A stretch of 64,000 nt of DNA from Umbilicaria muhlenbergii (Eukaryota; Ascomycota; Lecanoromycetes; Umbilicariales; Umbilicariaceae). Both the position numbers and the translations under genes were made by a program. Positions 15,945 through 49,623 of this stretch are shown one piece after another. Below the pieces are notes generated by a model, which saw only the letters and a program-made list of their open reading frames with translations, did not search any database and was not told the origin of the DNA. The first letter of the stretch is position 1. Each line of letters opens with the position of its first letter. The stretch spans positions 2,599,992 through 2,663,991 of the forward strand of contig KK106982.1 of NCBI GenBank assembly GCA_000611775.1, given 5' to 3'.

Positions 15945-16085
15945 CATTTTTGCTGCGTCTGTGACTATATAGAGCTTGCAACCCTGGGCTAAGCGCTCTG
16001 GATCCCCGATTCTCTCGTTCAACTTGAAGCTAACAACACGTAGATATTGAGACGGAATCTCATATGAGAGAGACAAACGCAGCCA

Positions 16086-16721
16086 ATGACCCCCCCGAAG
16101 CGGCTACCAACAGAGCAACTCTATCATGTTGCTCCAACGGGGGACGAGGCGTACATGCAGATGCTACTGGACAACGGGGCAGACCTCGAGGCAAGGAATA
16201 TGTGGGATGAGACCGCGCTGCACCGTGCAGCATACTACGGACACGAAGGTGTGCTGCGGCTGTTGGTTAACAACGGGGCGGACCTCGAGGCCAAGGATTT
16301 AGACGACGAGACAGCACTGCATCAAGCGGCCACGAACGGTCACCGTGCGGCAGTGCGGCTGTTAGTGGAGAAGGCCGACGTCGAGACGAAAAATTGTGGG
16401 GGATACACGGCACTACACCTGGCGGCTATGAATGGTCACCTTACGGTGGTGCGGCTGCTAGTAGAGACGGGGGCCGACGTAGAGGAAACGAATAACGAAG
16501 GAGAGACGGCACTGCATCAAGCGGCCAGGATTGGTCACGACACGGTGGTGCAGCTACTGCTGGAGAAAGGAGCCGGCGTCGAGGCAAAGACCAAGGAAGG
16601 AAAGACGGCGCTACAGCAGGCCGTCAGGAACGGGCATGAGGGGGTCGTGGGGCAGCTGCGCGAACACATGGGCAAGCACTCGAGCTCCGAAAGAGTGGAT
16701 GGCAACGGCGCAGCTATATGA
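16086..16721 (+). CDS. Ankyrin-repeat protein, probably truncated
   Basis: This is a cytosolic protein-interaction scaffold. The 211-residue frame contains about five ankyrin repeats, each with a TALHxAAxxGH core (for example ETALHRAAYYGHEGV, YTALHLAAMNGHLTV). Nothing but repeats is present, so the partner or role cannot be told. The last 20 residues (after LREHMGKHSS) do not fit a repeat. Ankyrin-like sequence resumes downstream in another frame at 16739-16870 (VVRLLLDDGPGVKAKNT, then a stop, then ALRRAAYYG). The gene therefore looks like the front part of a longer ankyrin array broken by frameshifts and a stop. It lies between the MITE and a zinc-finger gene at the edge of the transposon-rich island. 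Confidence 0.6.
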   Translation: MTPPKRLPTEQLYHVAPTGDEAYMQMLLDNGADLEARNMWDETALHRAAYYGHEGVLRLLVNNGADLEAKDLDDETALHQAATNGHRAAVRLLVEKADVETKNCGGYTALHLAAMNGHLTVVRLLVETGADVEETNNEGETALHQAARIGHDTVVQLLLEKGAGVEAKTKEGKTALQQAVRNGHEGVVGQLREHMGKHSSSERVDGNGAAI

Positions 16722-34018: not shown

Positions 34019-37000
34019 CTTAGCCCTTTGCTCAGTTTCCTCATGAATGTGTATCAGTATTGATTATGACTCACAGAGCCTCAGGAAAGTCCTCATAAAA
34101 CTTTTTAATTAATTTCTTAAAGTTGCAGGTGTTATCTGCAAACTTTTAAGTAATCTCTGAGAATTCCTTTCACACAATGTGATATTATAAAACAGGTTTA
34201 TCCTCAGAGCTGATCACAATTCATGAGGCTGTTATAACCTCAACTTTTCACTCTCTTTCAGCTGAGTTCTCTGTGAGATGAAGTAATTTAAGCTCTGATG
34301 TATCCTCACCTGCTCATGATTTATGATCATGAAGCAGGTTAACATGAAACACATTATGAATGCAAAGTTCCTTCAGTAGTTTCAGCTGATAAGCAATGTT
34401 CTTAATCTTTTTTATAATCTGAAAGAGTTCATAATGCTGTCAATTCAGCTTTCATAAGAGTCACTTCAGGGTTATGTTCTTGACCTTTAATCAGATCAAC
34501 TGTTCAACTCTATAAATCATGTCAAGGTGAAACTGATTGTAATGCTTAACTTGATACTCTTAAGACTTCACAAGAGCTCTGCAGACTTCTATTTAAATCT
34601 TGTGAAGATGCTTCATAAGCTGCTCAGCTTCAATGATAATTCCCTTAACTGCAAAGTACTTCATGAGTTCCTCTGCAGTGAGCATATCTGATCTAGGTAT
34701 GAAGTCATAGATGATCTTAAATGATGTCTTTTCAGTAGAAGAGTGTAAGCTCACATTGTACATGAACTCAGTTAATGTTAAAAGTGAGGCTCAATTGTCC
34801 TGTTGATAATTAACATAACTTCACAGGTACTGTTTCAACATGCTATTTTATTATTCAGTCTGCTCATCAGTTTGCAGATGAAAGGCAGTGCTCAATTAAT
34901 AATCAATCTTTAATGTGAACATTAAGTTGACTCAGAGTCATGAGGTAAAAACAGATTCATGATCTGAAATTAAAGCTTAAGTGACTTCATGCAGTTTAAC
35001 AATCTCTCTCACAAAGGTCTTTGTGAGTTGATCAGCAGTTCAGTCCTTTCTGGCTGAAATATAATGTGTCATCTTTAAGAATTTACACATCATCATCAGT
35101 ATGACATCATACACATCCTCATAAGCATGACTCTCTGAAAGGTTAATTATGAAGTTTAAAATGAGTACCTCTCAGGGTTCCTTCAAGATAAGTATGAGTT
35201 ATAATAATTCAAGTTATCTTTCATGAATGACTCTGACTCCCTGACAGACAAGACAAGAATTGCAGTATTTCTGAATTTGCTTTCACATGTTCAGTCAGTA
35301 GTACTTTGCATGTATCAGAGTAAAGATTTTCTCTGTTGTGAGGTGATCTGCAAGTGACTCATCATGATGCTTCTTAATAATCTCAAGTTGTAACAACTCT
35401 GCATGAGGTATATAAAGCATTAAGTTAAAGTATAAAAGGTCATTTCTTCATGATCAGAGTGAGTGAGAACCTGACATTCTTGAATTAACTTCATGAGCAG
35501 TAATCTGTTTCAGCATATGCTTCATGAGGGGATCAATCCGCAAGAACTCAGGTAACATTTTAATGAGAGAGATGTCAACCTCCTCATAAGATTCTTCATT
35601 CAAAACAGCCTCAGAGGTCTGTTTTTGTTGATTTCACTGCTGAGGACTTGTTGTGCCTGCAATTAATACCTCATGAAGGTGTACCTCCTGAGTCAATAAA
35701 TCATCTTTAAACTTAACTGAAATTAAAGTTACTGTCAGGAACAATATTTGTTGCAACATTAAAGCATTCTCAATCTGATCCTCTTGTTTCACTTCATGTT
35801 GATGATCAGGTCTTCATGAAGGACTGTCAACAAAATTCAGATTTCTCTTTTAATAAATGATAACAAAATCATAAATTGATAAAGTCAACACTCATCAAAC
35901 CTGTCTTCATGAGAGCTTATGAGTAATTATAAAACTTCACAAGCTTGAATGATCTGATAGCACCTCAACTGAATGAGTGAATCCTTTTAAATAATGCTAT
36001 CAATGATGAAAACTCTCAACTATTGTGAGCAGTTCTTCATCATGAGTTTCATACTTTCATTTCATGAGTATCATCTTTCATGAGAAATAGGCTGTAACTC
36101 TTCACTCATCAGAGTGCTTTTGTGAGAAAATATTTAAAATTGCATACCCTGAGGCATCTGTTTCAAGCTGTATTAATAGTGTGATGTTGAAATGCTGCAG
36201 GAACAGAGCAGTAGTGAAAGTTTACATAAGAATTTTAAAAGCAGTCTGTGTCTTCAAAGACAGAAAGCCTGCCCTTCATGAGATCAACTTCTTGTTTGAT
36301 TTTGCATTAAACCCTTTAATGATCTCTGTGAGAGGTGCAGTGATACATGAGAAGCCCTGTATGAACCTTTGATAAAAATTCATGAAGCTCAGAAATGTTT
36401 ACACTTCATGCACACTTTCTGACTCTGATCAGTTGACAATGATGAATATGTGATTCATCTTCATTTCAACCTCTGTATCTGTGATAACATATCTCAAGAA
36501 GGGCACACGCTTCATATTAAATAAGCATTTAAAAAGCTTTGTGAACAACTCTGTCATAAGCAGAGCTTTCAAGATAATCTGAACATGCTGTTCATGCTGA
36601 CTCTCTTTCATTGAGTAAATCAGTATATTATTCAAGAATACAATCATGAAGATGTTTAAATGTTCATGAAGAACTTCATGAATATAAGACTGAAAACTTG
36701 CAGGAGCATTGATAAGCTTAAAAGATATAATTAAGTATTCATACAGTCTGTACTTAGTATGAAAGGTTGTCTTTCACTCATCATCCTCATGTATGTGAAT
36801 GTGATAATAAGCATTTTTAACATCAATCTTCATAAAGATTTGAGTGTCACAGACATGATTCATGATCTCATTAATTAATGATAAAGGGTATCAGTTCTTT
36901 TAAGTAATAACATTTAACCTCTGATAATTCATGCAGAGCTGCAAGTCTTCATCATTTTTAAGTGCAAAAAGTACTGACACTCCTGCAGAAGATCATGATG

Positions 37001-39606: not shown

Positions 39607-39956
39607 NNNNNNNNNNNNNNNNNNNNNNNNNNNNNNNNNNNNNNNNNNNNNNNNNNNNNNNNNNNNNNNNNNNNNNNNNNNNNNNNNNNNNNNNNNNNNN
39701 NNNNNNNNNNNNNNNNNNNNNNNNNNNNNNNNNNNNNNNNNNNNNNNNNNNNNNNNNNNNNNNNNNNNNNNNNNNNNNNNNNNNNNNNNNNNNNNNNNNN
39801 NNNNNNNNNNNNNNNNNNNNNNNNNNNNNNNNNNNNNNNNNNNNNNNNNNNNNNNNNNNNNNNNNNNNNNNNNNNNNNNNNNNNNNNNNNNNNNNNNNNN
39901 NNNNNNNNNNNNNNNNNNNNNNNNNNNNNNNNNNNNNNNNNNNNNNNNNNNNNNNN
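39607..39956. other. Assembly gap (350 N)
   Basis: A run of undetermined bases, probably of estimated length. Frames that cross it are artefacts. Sequence to its right has ordinary composition, so the AT-rich island ends within or at the gap. Confidence 0.99.
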
Positions 39957-40656
39957 ATGAGGCTACAATCTACATATCTATCTAAAATCTCTATTGGGTA
40001 AACCTGAAACATATAAAATAAATGAAAATCAGCCCCCGAGGTTGGTATATAATGACGTTTAGCGGGAATAACATTAAAGCCGGTAGGGCTATGGCCTGCA
40101 CGTGATTAAAACTCGTCGTCCCGTCCGCTTATTTGCTTAGTCATGCAAGCTCATGCCTCAAGCGAGAGGTCCCCTCACGGTGGATCATTTTAAAGAAACA
40201 GTATATCTCTCCCGGACCTATTTGTGGTCTCTGGCGGGCGCATTTTAAATAGCTGCCAGTTACATTCAATCCTACCACAGTCCTTTCCATTATGGAATTG
40301 AGGCACCACTTCGTAAGAGAATGTGGTGATCATGCGGCAACCTGCAGCGATGCGGGTGGGCGTTTCTCAGCGCGATTGGGAAAGGTCACGTGCCCTTATA
40401 TAAGAACGACTTCTTCGCCAACACCGCAAGAATCTGTATCACACGGGGTCATTTGACCATTTCAAACCAGACAGCTCGCATTTATCAGCTCTACCTTTAT
40501 CCCCAAGTGGCACAGAGTATTGGGATACGGCCTGTGGGCTGAGGGATTTAAGAGACCTTAGGATTGAGAGATGCAAAAACGTGATTTTCTTCCTTCTATC
40601 TGCGAAGATCCCGAAGACTATGTACAAGAGTTTCATGCAATTCGCGATTCGCAAAG
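39957..40656. other. Intergenic region right of the gap
   Basis: No gene is supported. A TATATAAG box at about 40397 could serve a transcript starting near 40420-40650. Confidence 0.4.
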
Positions 40657-41704: not shown

Positions 41705-42152
41705 ATTCGCCTTCTACCCGGTTCTCAACCCAACGATGGCCCTGTCATCCCAAGATTCTAATTCTACCACCCATCTACCATAGCCCTCGATGTGATGGAT
41801 TTCCGTGAAGGATGAAGAGGCGAAGCGGTAAGGCTTTGCACCGGGCGTAGCAGGGTCCTGGACCGCGAAGCAAGAGCAAGGCTCCATACTTAGTCGCCAT
41901 AGGCGAAGAATACATGATGGCTTATTTACCCTACTCTCACTATTACGACCATCCTGCCTTGATTCAAATGGCAGCGGCTTTGGCATGTATACATTTCGAA
42001 AAGTAATAGAACTACCAGGTCCTAAATTCTTACAGCCATAAAAAAAAGGAAATATTACAGCGTCTCGGACAATCTGTGAGATTCATCAAAGGCAAGCTCG
42101 CCCTCCACCACCAAACTTCAGAAGTTGACGAGTCAGAGTCATAGAATAGGTC
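41705..42152. other. Intergenic, no feature seen
   Basis: Tail region between the hypothetical gene and the 3' end of the DUF3435 gene. Confidence 0.4.
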
Positions 42153-45100
42153 TCACTCCTCTCCGTGTAGCGTTTCCCCAAGACGCGCACTCTCCTGGAG
42201 AATTTGTCGCGCCCTCTCATCACACACCTTCATGTCCTCCTTGATCAGCATCACCGCCAGTTCTGGTACCAGAACCGTGATGACATAGTTAGCCACTCCG
42301 ACGGCCCTCAAGAGTCGATCCTTAACCGCCCATTGAGGAAGCTCGGATCTGAACTCGAATATGATGTGTTCGCCCCTGAGGATGTCAGCATTAGGCTAAA
42401 TGAAACGGCAGAGAAGGGACTGAAACGGTCGACCGATTCAAAGGGTTGGAAGAACAACTTACATGACCTCTTGTCCGCGAGGGCCATAATAGCCTGCCGT
42501 CGCATATTCCATGCCTCGGTATTTGGGGTTTGCACTGCTTGCCACGGCCGATTCTAATTCTGAGCAATAGAACGATGGTGAACCCCCGTTCAAGATCCCG
42601 CGAAGGGCAGGGAAAAATTTCGCCAACCGATTCTCGGATAGTCGCGTCGAGCCCATTCGGCTCCCGCATTTTTAGGCTTGTGGGCATTGCAAAAGGCCAT
42701 TTGCTGTCGCACGTTCATGCGCTTGTTCGAACGTTTCGACGGGCGAGGAACGTCGGTTCGGCATATTGGGCACTTGCTGGTAATGGGGTCGGTTTCTTTT
42801 GGAACCAGCACGTTACCTGAAGCCGACGCCGGCTCGTCATGGGCGAATTGCGTTGCAAGCAATTGCTCTTCCCTCGTGTCGTCCGTAATGGGAGCTTGGG
42901 ACTCGGGTTCATGATCAGACAGCTCCTGCAGAATAGGTTTTCCGTCGGGACCCGGAACCTCCACCCACCCTTGGATTTGTGTGGTCGACTCGGTTGGCTC
43001 TTTATGGCCCGGGGTGTTATAAGATTTGTAGGGGAGACGTGTACGACGTTGACTCAACAACGAATCGAGGCTGGGCAGATCGAGTCCGTCCTCCCCATCA
43101 CCCTGAGGCGTGTTAATGCCCTGAGAAGAATCAGATGTCGAAGGTTGAGATGTCGAGCCCACTGAGCAGAATAAGGCTGGATCCAGGAGATCCTCGAAAG
43201 AGCCAGAGCATGCGTCGGTGATGGGCGTAAATGCCGACGTCGGATCGGTGGTGCTGCCTTCTGCCCCACCGACGTCATCCATCCAGAAGGCATCGTCCAC
43301 GAAACCTCCTGTAGCACTATCATCGTACAGATCGCCACCATGCGGCGGCTGCTCCAGCAGTGCTTGGCCTTCAAGCTCCCGTCCCCCTACTTCTCCGTCG
43401 TCCTCACCGTCGACTAGGGTCACGCTTGAACTATGCCAATACGGTTCGGGGGAGCAGCTGCGGGATGATGGAATCGACATGGAGAGCTCCTTGGTAGTGT
43501 GGAGACCCTCATGCTGGCCGTTAGATGAATCGGGATGATCCAACCTGGTAGGTGGGGACCACTCGACGAAAATCGACCCAGCTAGTGCTTTCTTCGGACC
43601 CGGTTTCTTCCTGTTGGGCGGCTTCTTGCTGTTGGACCGCTTCGTCCTACCCGGTAATATCTGCCCCGGAACGGGCAGGTTCTTAGACCCCGAGTTGCCG
43701 AATGGGGAGCATTCGATGAACGTGGCACTTGCTTTCGCGGCTTTTCTCCTCTTGTGCGGTCTCGTCTCGTCGCCATCATCCACGCTGGGAATGGAAGTTA
43801 CATCACCAAGATCCTCGTCCTCTAGTGCCGGCTCCTTTACACTAAACCTCTTCCATTCGGCCTTCCAGAGGCCATAAGTATCGCTCAAATGGTAGCAGAG
43901 GGACTTCTTGTCTTTCGCCTCTGTGCCGCAGATGCAAGAGGTCGGCCAAGAGCGCACTGTGTTGATGTGGTCCTCCTCGACGTGGGTCATCAGAGTGCAG
44001 TTCCGGGTCCACTGCTTCAACCTCTTAGCGGCTGGAAGGCTTTCGTTACGCAGACACCAAGGACAGAAACCGGGACTGATCATAGTATGACAGTATATGC
44101 GTATTCCACACCAGGTGGGCGTGGTGCTGTCGAGGTGGCCGCGGCAATGTTCTTCCCAGGCGCCGTCGCCGTCAAACCACTTGAAGCAGAGGAAACAATA
44201 TTCTACCCGGACCGAGCCGGTACGGTCTGAGCCATTTCTCGCTTTTACGGTCGCTATGTAGTCTCTGCGGCGGCAGGCGTGGATGTGGTCGGCTCGGGTC
44301 CGCTTCGCTGCAGGCAATTCCGAACGACAAACGGGACAGGCTCCATCGACAGGCTCGTCGCCTGGCCGGTACATGACTTCGAAGTTCCTTGTGGAAAGGG
44401 ATAACAAATCTTCAACGGCCTGCAGCTTCTGGTTCCTGGTGCGAGGCTCCGTGGACTTGATCATGTTGGCGAGACGAACGCGCTCTGGCATTATGCGGAA
44501 GAGGGTCTGGGCCCTGCTGGCGGCAGGAGACCGGTCCGGCGATGTCTTCCCGCGGGACTGGATGATATTTTCATATCTGGCCTCCAGCCAGTCTGCCTTC
44601 CACTGTTCCAGCCTGCGGTTCATGAGCCAATGACGGTAGGTTGTGTATTTCCGCTCTGCTTCCTTGACGGCTTCAGGGGGCGCACCGCGTTGCCGGAGCT
44701 CGCGAACGTTTCCAAGCAGTGTACACGCCTTCGGGTTCTGGACGAATTCGGCCATTCTCTCTGCCGGCAGCTCTTGCGGAAGGCCTGGTGCTCGCTTGAC
44801 GCTGGTGCTGCGAAGCTTCTTTATGTGATCTGTGCGCTGCTCCATCCCGAGAAAAGCCTCCATTCCGTCGATGCCGCTGATCGGGTCTAGATATTTCTTA
44901 TTGCACACGTCAGACGAAGCCCAGCCCAGGAGCTTGTTTCTCTCCCCAGGAGTGGCAATTTCTACTCAGAGGTAAGCGACCACGCCAGACGGGGGAAGCG
45001 CAAGAACCTGCTAAGAACTTACTGTCGACCACGTTCGCGAGGGCACGCCGCAGAGCGTGAATGGTGAGCACGCCGTAATACCCCGCGTTCCGAACTATTT

Positions 45101-46429
45101 GCTGGAAATAGTATCTGAAGGTTGACTCGTCTAGCATTCTGTCAGAGAGACCTTCGTGTCTCGTGACGGTTCGCAATACCGGTAGGTCCAGCTTTGACGG
45201 GTCCTTGCGCAGCTCCAACAGTGGCTCGCCCTCCGGCACCCGTTGCTCCCACTGCTGAGCTGGCGTGGCAAAACCCGGTAATATGCCGTCTCTGAACGCC
45301 ATTTGAAGCAGGAACCCTGTGGAGTCAAACTTGAGTAGCGGGTGTTCGTACACAGCTACCTCGCTCCTGGAAAGAAATACGTCAGCTGACAAAAACCGCC
45401 CCTGGATTGTGGTTTGATTGGGATTGAAGAGGGTAAGGTACACCTGATTTTCCGGGTCCTTGTTGTTCTTGACCCAACGCTGTGTGAGCTTGAGAATGAC
45501 CTCTGCGGTACCGTCAGGCAGAGGGAAGAGGTAGATATGGACGTCCTGCAGGATCGTCAGCTTCCGCCGCGAAAGGGCGCCACAGCACTCAACGCCCCAA
45601 AAGGCTGGGGGCTTGCCTTCCATGTCAGTCCCCTAAACAAAACCTTCTCCATCTTCCCATCTTGCCCTTCCACCTCGCCTGTGAAGTTGTGGACAAAGGC
45701 CCCGATGCGGGCCCCCGAGTAGCAATAGGCCTGGGTAAGGAACGTTAATTGACTCCTCATTACTTCGTGGATGAATACGGGGTCGGGTTCGGTCCAAAGA
45801 GAAATGACGCAAGATTCAAGCTCGCCATTGTCAAACAGGTATTTTTCACGTGTCTTTGTGGTCGTGAAGCCCTCTTTAACCAGCCTAGTCCGGATGAACT
45901 AGTAGGACGATCGTTAACAGAGCTGGCGGCCCGGTTCAGATGTTTTCCATAGAGAATTCACAGTGTAGACATCTGTCCTTAATCCATCGGGTATCTTTGT
46001 TCTCGTGATCCTCTCAAATCCACTGAAAAACTTCTTTATAGTGTTTCTGACCGAAGTTTCGTTGGGCACCTCCTCGAGCCGGCCGCGACGGGATTTGCAA
46101 TGCCATCGGGCAAAGCCTTTAACGGCCACATTGCTGGGAAGGGGGCAATTTTCACGCAGGCACTCTGCGGCCGAGACGCCTTTACGAGACATGAAACTGT
46201 GTGGCTCTGTCAGTGGTTGTGAAGAGAGAAGGGAAAATTCCGCTCCTGGCAGCTGAACCTGTAGATCTCACATTGTCCATTGATCCAGGCCCTCCTGCTG
46301 ATTCAATTCGTATCTGTCAGAAGGCTCATCCTGCTCCAAGACAATAGAGTCCTCCTCGTGGGCGCCATCCTCCCAGCCATTAGCCTCGGCCATTTCAAAG
46401 TATTCTCTCGCCGTTCGTTTCTGGCCCAT
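42153..46429 (-). CDS. DUF3435 tyrosine-recombinase-like (Starship captain type) protein with RTC4-like C-terminus
   Basis: Exons on the minus strand are 46272-46429, 45962-46196, 45617-45898, 45023-45545, 42463-44964 and 42153-42348, in phase except for one base. The first 430 residues match DUF3435: GARIGAF (R about 195), LTQRWVKNNKDPEN, FLSADVFLSRSE, HALRRALANVVD (H388, R391), then LLGWASSD (W414) and NKKYL (Y424). These sit in the order of a tyrosine-recombinase R...HxxR...H/W...Y set. Then follow Cys/His clusters (about 609-760: CPVC, CFLC, CPWC, CICG), an acidic disordered region, and an RTC4-like end (CPICRTDV, MNVRQQMAFCNAHK, YPRIGW, VLVPELAVMLIKEDM). Intron 3 is GC-AG. An apparent 1-base deletion at AAATTTTTCCC (42610-42621) puts the last domain out of frame: sequencing error or a real lesion. 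The N-terminal exon (MGQKRTAREYFEMAEANGW) is the least certain. Confidence 0.85.
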
Positions 46430-47580
46430 GGAGCTAGGACTGGAGATGACAGGGGATGGCAGACGCTTGACAAAGGGAAGCTGGGCCCAGGACTGAAGAG
46501 AAGAGATCGAAAGTGAGGGAGAAAATTGGGAAATTGATCAAGCGAAGAAGCAGGCACCGACTTAGAAAGGCACCGAGAATGAGGTTCTCAGAAGGAAGAA
46601 AGAAAGAAGGAGAGGAAAGAGAAGAGAAGGGGAGAGGGACTCGAGGATAGAGGGAGCGCCTTGAGCGCCGTCTGGGGGGGGCCCGTTTGGGCCCTGCTGG
46701 CTCGGAGCCTGAAATAGGGCCCATGGCGCGGGTGGAGAGGGAGACAAAACGAAACGGGCGAATCGGACTGGTCGAGCAGGGCCAAGTGAGTGAGGACGGT
46801 GGGTGATGGTGAGGGAGGGAAGGGTGACGGCGGGTGAACGAGGGTGAGCAGCGTCACCCGGGGTGGGTGTTGGAACACCCAGGTCGCGCGACTTTTTGGG
46901 GTGAGGGCGGCGACGATTTTGATATTGCCCAAAACGGCAGATGCGCCGATTTACCTTAGATGGGGGGGGGTTGAAAGTTAAGAACGTGCGAATTGCTCCA
47001 ACTCTCTCAACGGAACGGGGCTTTTTCTGGGATGGGTGGATGTGGGACTGATGACCTAGCCGGAGAGGGAGAGGGAGAGGGAAACTGACTGCTGAGTCGG
47101 GTGACGGAATGTCGGGGGGGGGATAGAATCATTGGAGAGGAGAGGAGAGGAGAGGAGAGAAGAGGAGAGTAGAGTATGACATGAATCTCCGTAGTACAAG
47201 TCAGTCGTTGAATTGAAGCGGTGAGGATTAGAGTGGTTGGAAAGTGGGGTATCTGTATTCAAAAAATAATGCAGACGGAGACGTGTGTCTCGTGGCTGTC
47301 TATCTATGTGTAGCCAGCGCTTGAAGCAAATTGTAAATGCTGGTGCTCTAGCTCACGCTCATGCTCATGCTCAAGCTCATCATGCTCGTATCAAAGCCAT
47401 GTCGAGACCACGGTCACCACCAGACCACACCATAAATGCTGCTCAATTAATTCGTCCCTGGTAAGATACCAAACCACCAACGCCCGCGCCATGCAATCGC
47501 TCTGATCTGAGGATGCACTCCCTTTTTACCCCCCCCCTTTCTCCCCGTTCCGTACAACCCTCTTTAGAACTCTCCAAACC
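46430..47580. repeat. Gene-free, repeat-rich region upstream of the DUF3435 gene
   Basis: It contains a purine tract (46560-46650), a GGGTGA-rich cluster with TCGCGCGAC (about 46790-46910), a G10 run (46963), GGGAGA microsatellites (47062-47090), GGAGA repeats (47134-47170) and a GCTCATGCTCA repeat (47351-47388). No coding sequence is seen. If the DUF3435 gene is a mobile-element captain, the element edge should fall here. Confidence 0.6.
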
Positions 47581-49623
47581 TCAACGGGGTGGTCCTCCCA
47601 TCATCATCATCATCTTCTCCGTCGGACTGAACTTGCTCATGGCGCGAATCTTCTTCCCGTAAATGAAGAAAAGGACGGGCACGGGCACCATCGCCAAGGC
47701 GACAAAAGCCAGGAGACTCGTCGCCCACGCCACGCCGAGATTGTGGAACATGGGGCCCGCGAAGAGCGGGAAGCCGGCGCCGGCGAGCGATCGCACGAGC
47801 GTGTTGGCCGCGAGGGCCGAGTTGGCGAACATGAGGTAGACGTCGATGATGTAGTTGAGACCCCTTTGAGAATTGAATTAGTACGGTGTTCGAAGCGGAT
47901 GGTATCGGGTTGGAAGGGAGACATACTGCATGAAAATCAAAAAGACACCCGCTCCAATCGGGATCCCCGCCAACACCTGCGGCACCCACGTGATATGCGG
48001 GCTGCTCGTCCACGCGAACCAAAACAGACCGATGGGCAACATGACGGAACCGATCATCATAGCCACCAGACGTTCCTCCGGGGGTGACCTGCCATGCTTC
48101 TTCTGCTGCGCAACCGCCCGCGTCTTGGTGAGATAGATGATAATGGCGACGCCGAGGAGGACGCCGATGGTGATGCCGAGGAAGGGCAGCGCGCCCACGC
48201 CATCATTCCATTTGCGCTCTTCTTGGAACGAAATCGGGTAGGCTTCGAAGAAGAGATAGAGGGTGCCGTAGATGAGGGCCATGTAGATTGTCATGAGGAT
48301 GAGGATGGGCTCGACGATAAGCATGTGCATCGGCCGGAAGAGGTATTTGGTGAAGATTTGCCCCATGTCGATCTGCACCTCGTCCGCCTTGGCGTGGTAG
48401 GCCCAGTTCTTGGTTTCGTAGCGGAGTTTCTTGGCCCGTCGCTGCAGCAGGACCGGGGCATAGGTCTCGCGGATGAAGATGAGCCCAATGACCTGGAAGA
48501 GCGCCGCCATGATCATGGTGATCCATGCCGTCCATCTCCAGCCGAGAGAGCTCTGCGTGATGAACCCACCCATGATGGGGCCCGCTACCGGCCCGATGAA
48601 TGTGGCGGCGGCGAATATGGCCACGGCGATTCCACGGTCAACGGGGTTCCAAAAGTCCGCCAGAGCGCCGCCGACTACAGCGAGAGGCGCGCAGCCGAAC
48701 ATGCCCGCAAGGAAGCGAGTGACTAGAATGGTTGCCAGGTTTTGGGCCACCGCGGTGGGGATTTGAAAGATCATGAAGACGAAGAAGCCGCCGAAGAGGG
48801 GGAGAAGACGGCCGTAGAGTTCGGACATGGGCCCCCAGAAGGACGGACCGATTGCAAAGCCCTGACGTTGTTAGTGAGGACATCAACCAATGACGGGAGA
48901 GGGAGGATAGCGTACAAGAACAAAAAGACTGGTGCCCAGCGTCGTGACCTCGGTCGACACCCCATATTGTTCCGCCGTGACGACTGTCGCGGTGCTGAAA
49001 ACACTACTGGCAAAGGTGATGACAAAGGTCATCAAGGAGAAGGTGAAGGTGACGACCCATTTCTTGGATCTCGGCCAGTTCATCGGGTTCCCTGGGTCAT
49101 CCGGTCCGTTCCAGTCGACTATATTGGGATCTTTGGGTCCCTGTGGCGGGCCGGGAGGACCTGGTGGCCCCGGTGGCCCCGGTGGCCCCGGTGGCCCCGG
49201 TGGCCCCGGTGGTGCTGGAAACAGTCCTTGCGGCGCGCCTCGAGCCGCTGCCTTTTCCGACGTCACCGCATCTTTCTCCACATCCCGATCTCTGTCGTCG
49301 CCGAGCTCGACGTCGGACGCGTCATCCATGAAGGTGGGATTGATGTGTCTGCTCAGGTAATCGAAGCGGCGCTGCTCGAACTTTCGTTGTTCCTCCAGTT
49401 GGAGGGAGTCGTCTGATTCGCCGGGTAGGGTGTCGCTGTGTTGGAGATTCTCCATGGTGTGAAGGACTCGCGAATCGTAGACGGAGTCGGCGTCGTCGTA
49501 GATGAAAGTTTCGCCATTGCGCGGGAGCTCCGTCCTGGACGCGGATGCCATCATGTTGGACTGGCTGATTTGAGGAGTGACGACCTTGGTCCTCTCCGTG
49601 TCCACCGACGGTCGGAGAGACAT
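47581..49623 (-). CDS. MFS drug/polyamine-type transporter (DHA1) with collagen-like N-terminal tail
   Basis: This is a 12-TM proton antiporter of the fungal Tpo/Flu1-like DHA1 group, exporting drugs or polyamines at the plasma membrane. Exons 48916-49623, 47927-48861 and 47581-47863 join in phase to give 641 residues. Family marks are DPGNPMNWPRSKKW before TM1, FWGPMSELYGRLLPLF (motif A region), RFLAGMFGCAPLAVVGGALADFW shown here by its start, RETYAPVLLQRRAKKLR in the central loop, and LNYIIDVYLMFANSALAANT in TM10-11. The start at 49623 has a GCCGCCATG context; an in-frame ATG at 49758 is an alternative. The acidic N-tail contains seven or so GPP triplets (about residues 140-165) from a 9-bp DNA repeat, unlike normal family members. 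Confidence 0.9.
49153..49212 (-). repeat. 9-bp GGTGGCCCC repeat encoding GPP triplets
   Basis: About six exact copies on + (GGTGGCCCC) read as Gly-Pro-Pro in the transporter's N-terminal tail. Confidence 0.92.

Follow-up and report, generated by a model that had tools for sequence, protein, structure and literature searches.

Does a single fungal gene join a tyrosine recombinase (YR) of the DUF3435 family (PF11917), to which the captains of Starship elements belong, to an RTC4-like domain (PF14474), and what would such a tail do for the enzyme? The question is raised by a multi-exon gene on the minus strand, at 46429-42153 of a 64,000-nt stretch of DNA from Umbilicaria muhlenbergii (contig KK106982.1, positions 2,599,992 to 2,663,991), which is called the window here. 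The explanation that we consider best, with a probability of roughly 0.55, is that the gene belongs to a lineage of captain-family recombinases with an exchangeable RTC4 tail that would tether the enzyme to chromatin or to a partner, and that this tail has been thrown out of frame in the window copy. The genome comprises 34.8 Mb in seven contigs. Because the gene lies about 2.64 Mb into a contig of 7.0 Mb, a telomere-proximal location is ruled out.

Two domains at one locus

The matches to DUF3435 and RTC4 are both far beyond chance. In Pfam, DUF3435 matches residues 166-517 with 98.5 bits (cut-off 25.8), which places the protein in the DUF3435/captain superfamily. RTC4 matches with 108.5 bits against a curated cut-off of 23.7 and covers positions 2-120 of the 121 in the profile, in a second reading frame that is read through intron 5 into exon 6; this second-frame piece is by that measure an RTC4-like domain. 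An initial annotation, made from the sequence alone, had proposed DUF3435, Cys/His clusters and an RTC4-like tail at this locus and had named a hidden Markov model search as a check. All three parts are present: the search returned significant scores for both domains, a Cys/His-rich region is seen, and the peptides MNVRQQMAFCNAHK and VLVPELAVMLIKEDM were confirmed.

The residues expected of a tyrosine recombinase occur in the right order, as R195, H388/R391, W413 and Y423. The first three numbers and the order agree with the initial annotation, whereas the Trp and Tyr fall one position lower in our splice model than it had stated. Among the window protein and its relatives, the Arg, the H-x-x-R and the Tyr are conserved in every alignment row that has a letter at those positions, and a Cre-like YR fold is present in the predicted structure model of a relative rather than of the window protein itself. 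Other profile matches are weak. A phage-integrase match at residues 361-423 has an E value of 0.15, under its own Pfam cut-off, and the C2H2-like Pfam matches in the Cys/His-rich region are all below theirs. Searching solved structures by sequence gave nothing convincing for either the DUF3435 set (best E 0.1) or RTC4 (best E 0.024, to a designed repeat protein), and nothing in Rfam reached the gathering score.

The features of the gene model are as follows (ORF, open reading frame).

46272-46429, minus strand: exon 1, with proposed start ATG (46429) and donor GTGAGA
45962-46196, minus strand: exon 2, N-terminal part
45617-45898, minus strand: exon 3, with catalytic Arg195 at about 45707-45709
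45546-45616, minus strand: intron 3, of the GC-AG type (donor GCAAGC, acceptor CTGCAG)
45023-45545, minus strand: exon 4, with His388/Arg391 at about 45048-45059
42463-44961, minus strand: exon 5, with the recombinase end (Trp413 and Tyr423, about 44891-44923), Cys/His region, linker, RTC4 leader, frame break and first half of RTC4
43925-44386, minus strand: Cys/His-rich region, about residues 592-745
42623-42772, minus strand: RTC4 leader in the recombinase frame (CPIC...FCNAHK...EWARRDYPRIGW)
42590-42592, minus strand: stop codon of the recombinase frame
42560-42627, minus strand: candidate intron, unproven, that would bridge the frame break
42463-42587, minus strand: first half of the PF14474 RTC4 match, in the second frame
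42376-42462, minus strand: intron 5, inside RTC4, matching the separate RTC4 gene of the genome in place and phase
42153-42375, minus strand: exon 6, second half of RTC4 and stop

The five accepted introns are 61-87 nt long, and their donors score 5 (n=3) or 6 (n=2) on a crude six-base scale. Joining 46429-46272, 46196-45962, 45898-45617, 45545-45023 and 44961 onward gives a recombinase frame of 1189 aa that ends at the stop.

A broken frame and its intact relatives

Under the five-intron model, the two domains of the window copy do not share one open frame. Exon 42463-44964 had been described in the initial annotation as free of stops, with a direct link from recombinase to RTC4. That description fails at the stop at 42590-42592, and the entire PF14474 match lies in the other frame. 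The recombinase frame does reach CPICRTDV, as had been claimed, and continues to the conserved EW...YPRIGW motif before it ends. The Trp of GYPRIxW and the residue that pairs with the next Lys of the window are separated by 8 codons in 13 aligned relatives (P0001-P0003 and P0005-P0014) and in the separate RTC4 gene, and by 2 nt in the window, which is therefore 22 nt short and shifted in frame. The break is probably a deletion of about 22 nt that truncates the tail, and this is the cause that we rate most likely. The likely product of the window copy would then be a recombinase of 1189 residues with a cut-off tail.

In relatives, the tail follows the recombinase. A search with the 1189-aa frame found one protein, P0001, which is a single ORF that covers the second half of the recombinase and continues into RTC4, reads through intron 4, and ends at the codon where intron 5 of the window starts. 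With P0001 as the query, and with only the 8000 candidates sharing most words being scored, 13 proteins were found, P0001 included. The RTC4 leader is continued through in 12 of these, with P0004 stopping short, and several start only past the recombinase, within the Cys/His region or close to it. In eleven of the 12, the end lies 0-7 residues from the position of window intron 5, as expected of unspliced ORFs, and the remaining one, P0012 from Rhinocladiella similis, is a complete model. A further search with P0012 returned 25 proteins, among which P0012 and P0014 (Exophiala xenobiotica) carry DUF3435 and RTC4 both above the Pfam cut-off. The domain pair named in the initial annotation is right.

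The two complete proteins (RBB50_012872 of R. similis, which is P0012, and LTR96_010859 of E. xenobiotica) have the same order as the window gene, namely YR, Cys/His region, linker and RTC4. They differ from it in that RTC4 is in frame, and they are annotated as hypothetical proteins. P0012 and P0001, a member of the window family, share about 25% identity. Three unspliced proteins, P0005, P0007 and P0010, score 15.0-18.1 bits for RTC4, below the cut-off, because only positions up to 50 precede the intron; the corresponding exon of the separate RTC4 gene reaches 31 bits. P0015 of Exophiala dermatitidis, a close relative of P0012 and P0014, has no RTC4 match in Pfam, and several tail-less relatives may owe their lack of a tail to gene prediction. 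A local RTC4 profile was also used, but these same proteins went into building it, and its matches do not count as independent evidence. Viral contigs and prokaryote genome contigs, scanned once each, yielded no relative. As judged from these sequence comparisons, the DUF3435 and RTC4 pair is a family trait and the fusion is ancestral, because RTC4 follows the recombinase in relatives although the frame of the window copy is broken.

The source of the tail can be approached through the host gene. PF14474 occurs at two loci in the genome, the window gene and, at C3:666 kb, a separate RTC4 gene, and in both an intron lies in the Met codon after GYYGxRG, behind its second base. RTC4 proteins therefore share with the window gene the PF14474 domain, a CxxC...CxxH leader, and the place and phase of this intron, and they differ in being encoded by a separate gene without a recombinase. 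Seven residues of the separate gene are absent from all aligned captain tails. The tail of P0013 is 50% identical to that of P0012 and 36% identical to the separate RTC4 gene, and the values for P0001 are 48% and 39%; the second-frame piece of the window gives 47% and, over 126 positions, 48%. Judged against a single separate RTC4 gene, the data fit the capture of a host RTC4 gene in its genomic form, with the intron retained. In a tree of the Cys/His core, RTC4-tailed proteins fall in two clades (36 rows, leaving out P0013 and P0035 as too short and P0036 as lacking a match). A tree that unites them and also takes in P0004 and P0015 is not rejected (p-AU 0.27), and RTC4-tailed captains may have one origin or several.

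Other tails, and the surroundings of the gene

Some related recombinases carry a different module at the same end. C-terminal chromodomains occur in four of the 25 proteins of the P0012 search (P0028, P0032, P0033 and P0034, from Fusarium and Monosporascus). A local profile finds two in tandem, and Pfam confirms those of P0028 and P0034. In stretch L038 of the U. muhlenbergii genome, a Cys/His ORF with kinship to the window gene is followed 3' on the same strand by a chromodomain ORF of 59.1 bits (L038:3176-5543); these are separate ORFs that we infer to be joined. Stretch L040 has a partial chromodomain (24.3 bits, cut-off 25.1); the ORF that carries it overlaps the Cys/His ORF of this stretch, in a different frame. 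RTC4 was not found in eight captain-like stretches fetched from this genome, which are part of the about 13 loci into which its 21 captain-like matches were grouped.

We propose only tentatively that captain-family recombinases have an exchangeable C-terminal slot, filled by RTC4 in some lineages and by one or two chromodomains in others, that decides where an element lands, with RTC4 itself binding chromatin. The integrases of chromodomain-bearing retrotransposons (chromoviruses) are likewise DNA-joining enzymes that end in a C-terminal module for chromatin binding. Unlike the window protein they have a chromodomain in place of RTC4, and they are DDE integrases, not tyrosine recombinases. The Starships Sanctuary and Frontier carry a separate chromodomain gene at their far end (PMC12506042, PMC11857905), which hints independently that the reading of chromatin may be of importance to such elements.

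Whether the window gene sits in a Starship is a separate matter. It shares with Starship captains the DUF3435 domain, the YR catalytic residues and, through the model of a relative, the Cre-like fold. It differs in its RTC4 tail, which was found in no captain description in the literature searched, and in that no element boundary was found in the window. Element ends were sought as exact matches of at least 12 nt, a floor that a real target duplication could fall below, between 46430-47580 and 7001-42150. This gave two inverted and five direct matches against a mean of 2.15 each in 20 shuffles. The longest were 12 nt (inverted) and 13 nt (direct), and the shuffled controls reached 15 and 14 nt. 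Because no terminal repeats stand out, the window gene is not called a Starship. No other DNA copy of 42100-48000 was found in the genome, where its sole match is itself.

A gene for a major facilitator superfamily transporter lies upstream of the window gene. On the 3' side is an AT-rich block at about 18700-39600, with a GC content of about 0.31-0.42 in 2-kb bins (0.345 overall) and a CpG observed/expected ratio of about 0.10, compared with 0.88-0.93 around it. Repeat-induced point mutation of the CpA type is not supported as its cause, as the block has no CpA signature; the loss of C to T seems aimed at CpG. At least one 1-kb bin with a CpG ratio below 0.35 is present in seven of the nine captain-like stretches examined (L038, L039, L041, L043, L044, L045 and the window, not L040 or L046), and no such bin occurs in L042, the stretch with the separate RTC4 gene. 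The block also contains a reverse transcriptase fragment (RVT_1, 36.2 bits, at 36432-36773), and an ankyrin-repeat ORF (16068-16718) lies near its left edge. Between the block and the captain segment is a run of 350 N at 39607-39956. A repeat of about 190 bp lies at 40001-40192; it matches 24 other places in the genome, with 17 of these matches longer than 150 bp, and may be the end of a long terminal repeat or of a miniature inverted-repeat transposable element.

A possible role for the tail and its alternatives

According to the explanation that we favor, the protein would consist of an N-terminal core-binding domain, a Cre-like catalytic domain (R, H-x-x-R, W, Y), a Cys/His region, a long linker, and an RTC4 tail acquired, together with its intron, from the genomic DNA of a host gene. 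The core would cleave and ligate the ends of the element through a 3'-phosphotyrosyl bond, and the Cys/His region would probably aid DNA binding. The tail would serve as a swappable tether to chromatin or to a chromatin-bound partner and so bias the site of action, as the chromodomains of relatives may also do. In the single copy of this genome, the deletion would have put RTC4 out of frame. Targeting to chromatin had been put forward in the initial annotation on the strength of telomere-capping phenotypes in yeast. The idea remains plausible and is better supported by the chromodomains of relatives, whereas telomere targeting in particular finds no support. One source places yeast Rtc4 in both cytosol and nucleus and gives it a genetic link to telomere maintenance, with its function unclear (PMC6162548), and another traces the RTC names to a cdc13-1 screen, without naming RTC4 itself there (PMC5349225). 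Such genetics does not show telomere binding.

Two of the alternatives concern the structure of the gene. The different frames of DUF3435 and RTC4 in the window might mean that adjacent captain and RTC4 genes were mistakenly read as one. This is very improbable, as the RTC4 leader, as far as the conserved Trp, lies within the recombinase frame itself, a single ORF leads from recombinase to RTC4 in P0001, and the NCBI models P0012 and P0014 join both domains. A loss of the tail in the window copy is open to a more serious objection, although we find it doubtful: the frame may be restored by a sixth intron at 42627-42560, or the break may be an assembly or base-calling error. Among 18 candidate GT/GC-AG introns between 42760 and 42470 that would rejoin the frames, this one is the best (donor GTTGGC, acceptor GCTCAG). 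Its donor scores 5 of 6, equal to three of the five accepted donors on the same crude scale, its 68 nt are a typical length, and its removal rejoins the frames without a stop, all of which weighs against a truncated tail; the contig is, moreover, a scaffold with an N gap. Such an intron would, however, delete the Trp and the residues after it, which the 13 aligned relatives conserve, and it has none of four counted branch motifs (which two of the five accepted introns also lack). A shortfall of 22 nt is too large for a one-base slip.

The other two concern function. The tail could be a dimerisation, stability or regulatory module with no part in the choice of target sites, a view that suits the unclear function and partly cytosolic location of yeast Rtc4 and the low-confidence linker of about 240 residues behind which the tail lies in P0012. 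We think this unlikely, given that the chromodomains of related DUF3435 proteins at the same C-terminal position point to chromatin contact. Somewhat less probable still is a solo, domesticated DUF3435 gene that moves nothing and uses its tail in host chromatin biology. The single DNA-level match in the genome and the lack of a flanking repeat pair longer than in shuffled controls agree with this, and DUF3435 genes are more usually solo (PMC12134995). Against it, relatives keep the catalytic residues, the window copy is apparently broken, which would be unexpected for a needed host gene, and stop codons interrupt many of the other DUF3435 matches in the genome, a pattern of decaying mobile DNA.

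DUF3435-RTC4 proteins are already public as hypothetical proteins. In open-licence PMC literature, no paper was found with both DUF3435 and RTC4, with a tyrosine recombinase and RTC4, or with PF14474, and a description elsewhere is possible. Related cores with different tails, RTC4 or chromodomain, offer a direct test, by tail exchange, of how captains choose their target sites. If the C-terminal slot does act as proposed, the orphan RTC4 family would gain its first molecular function, and a domain known mainly through the genetics of telomere capping in yeast would be given a tractable biochemical context.
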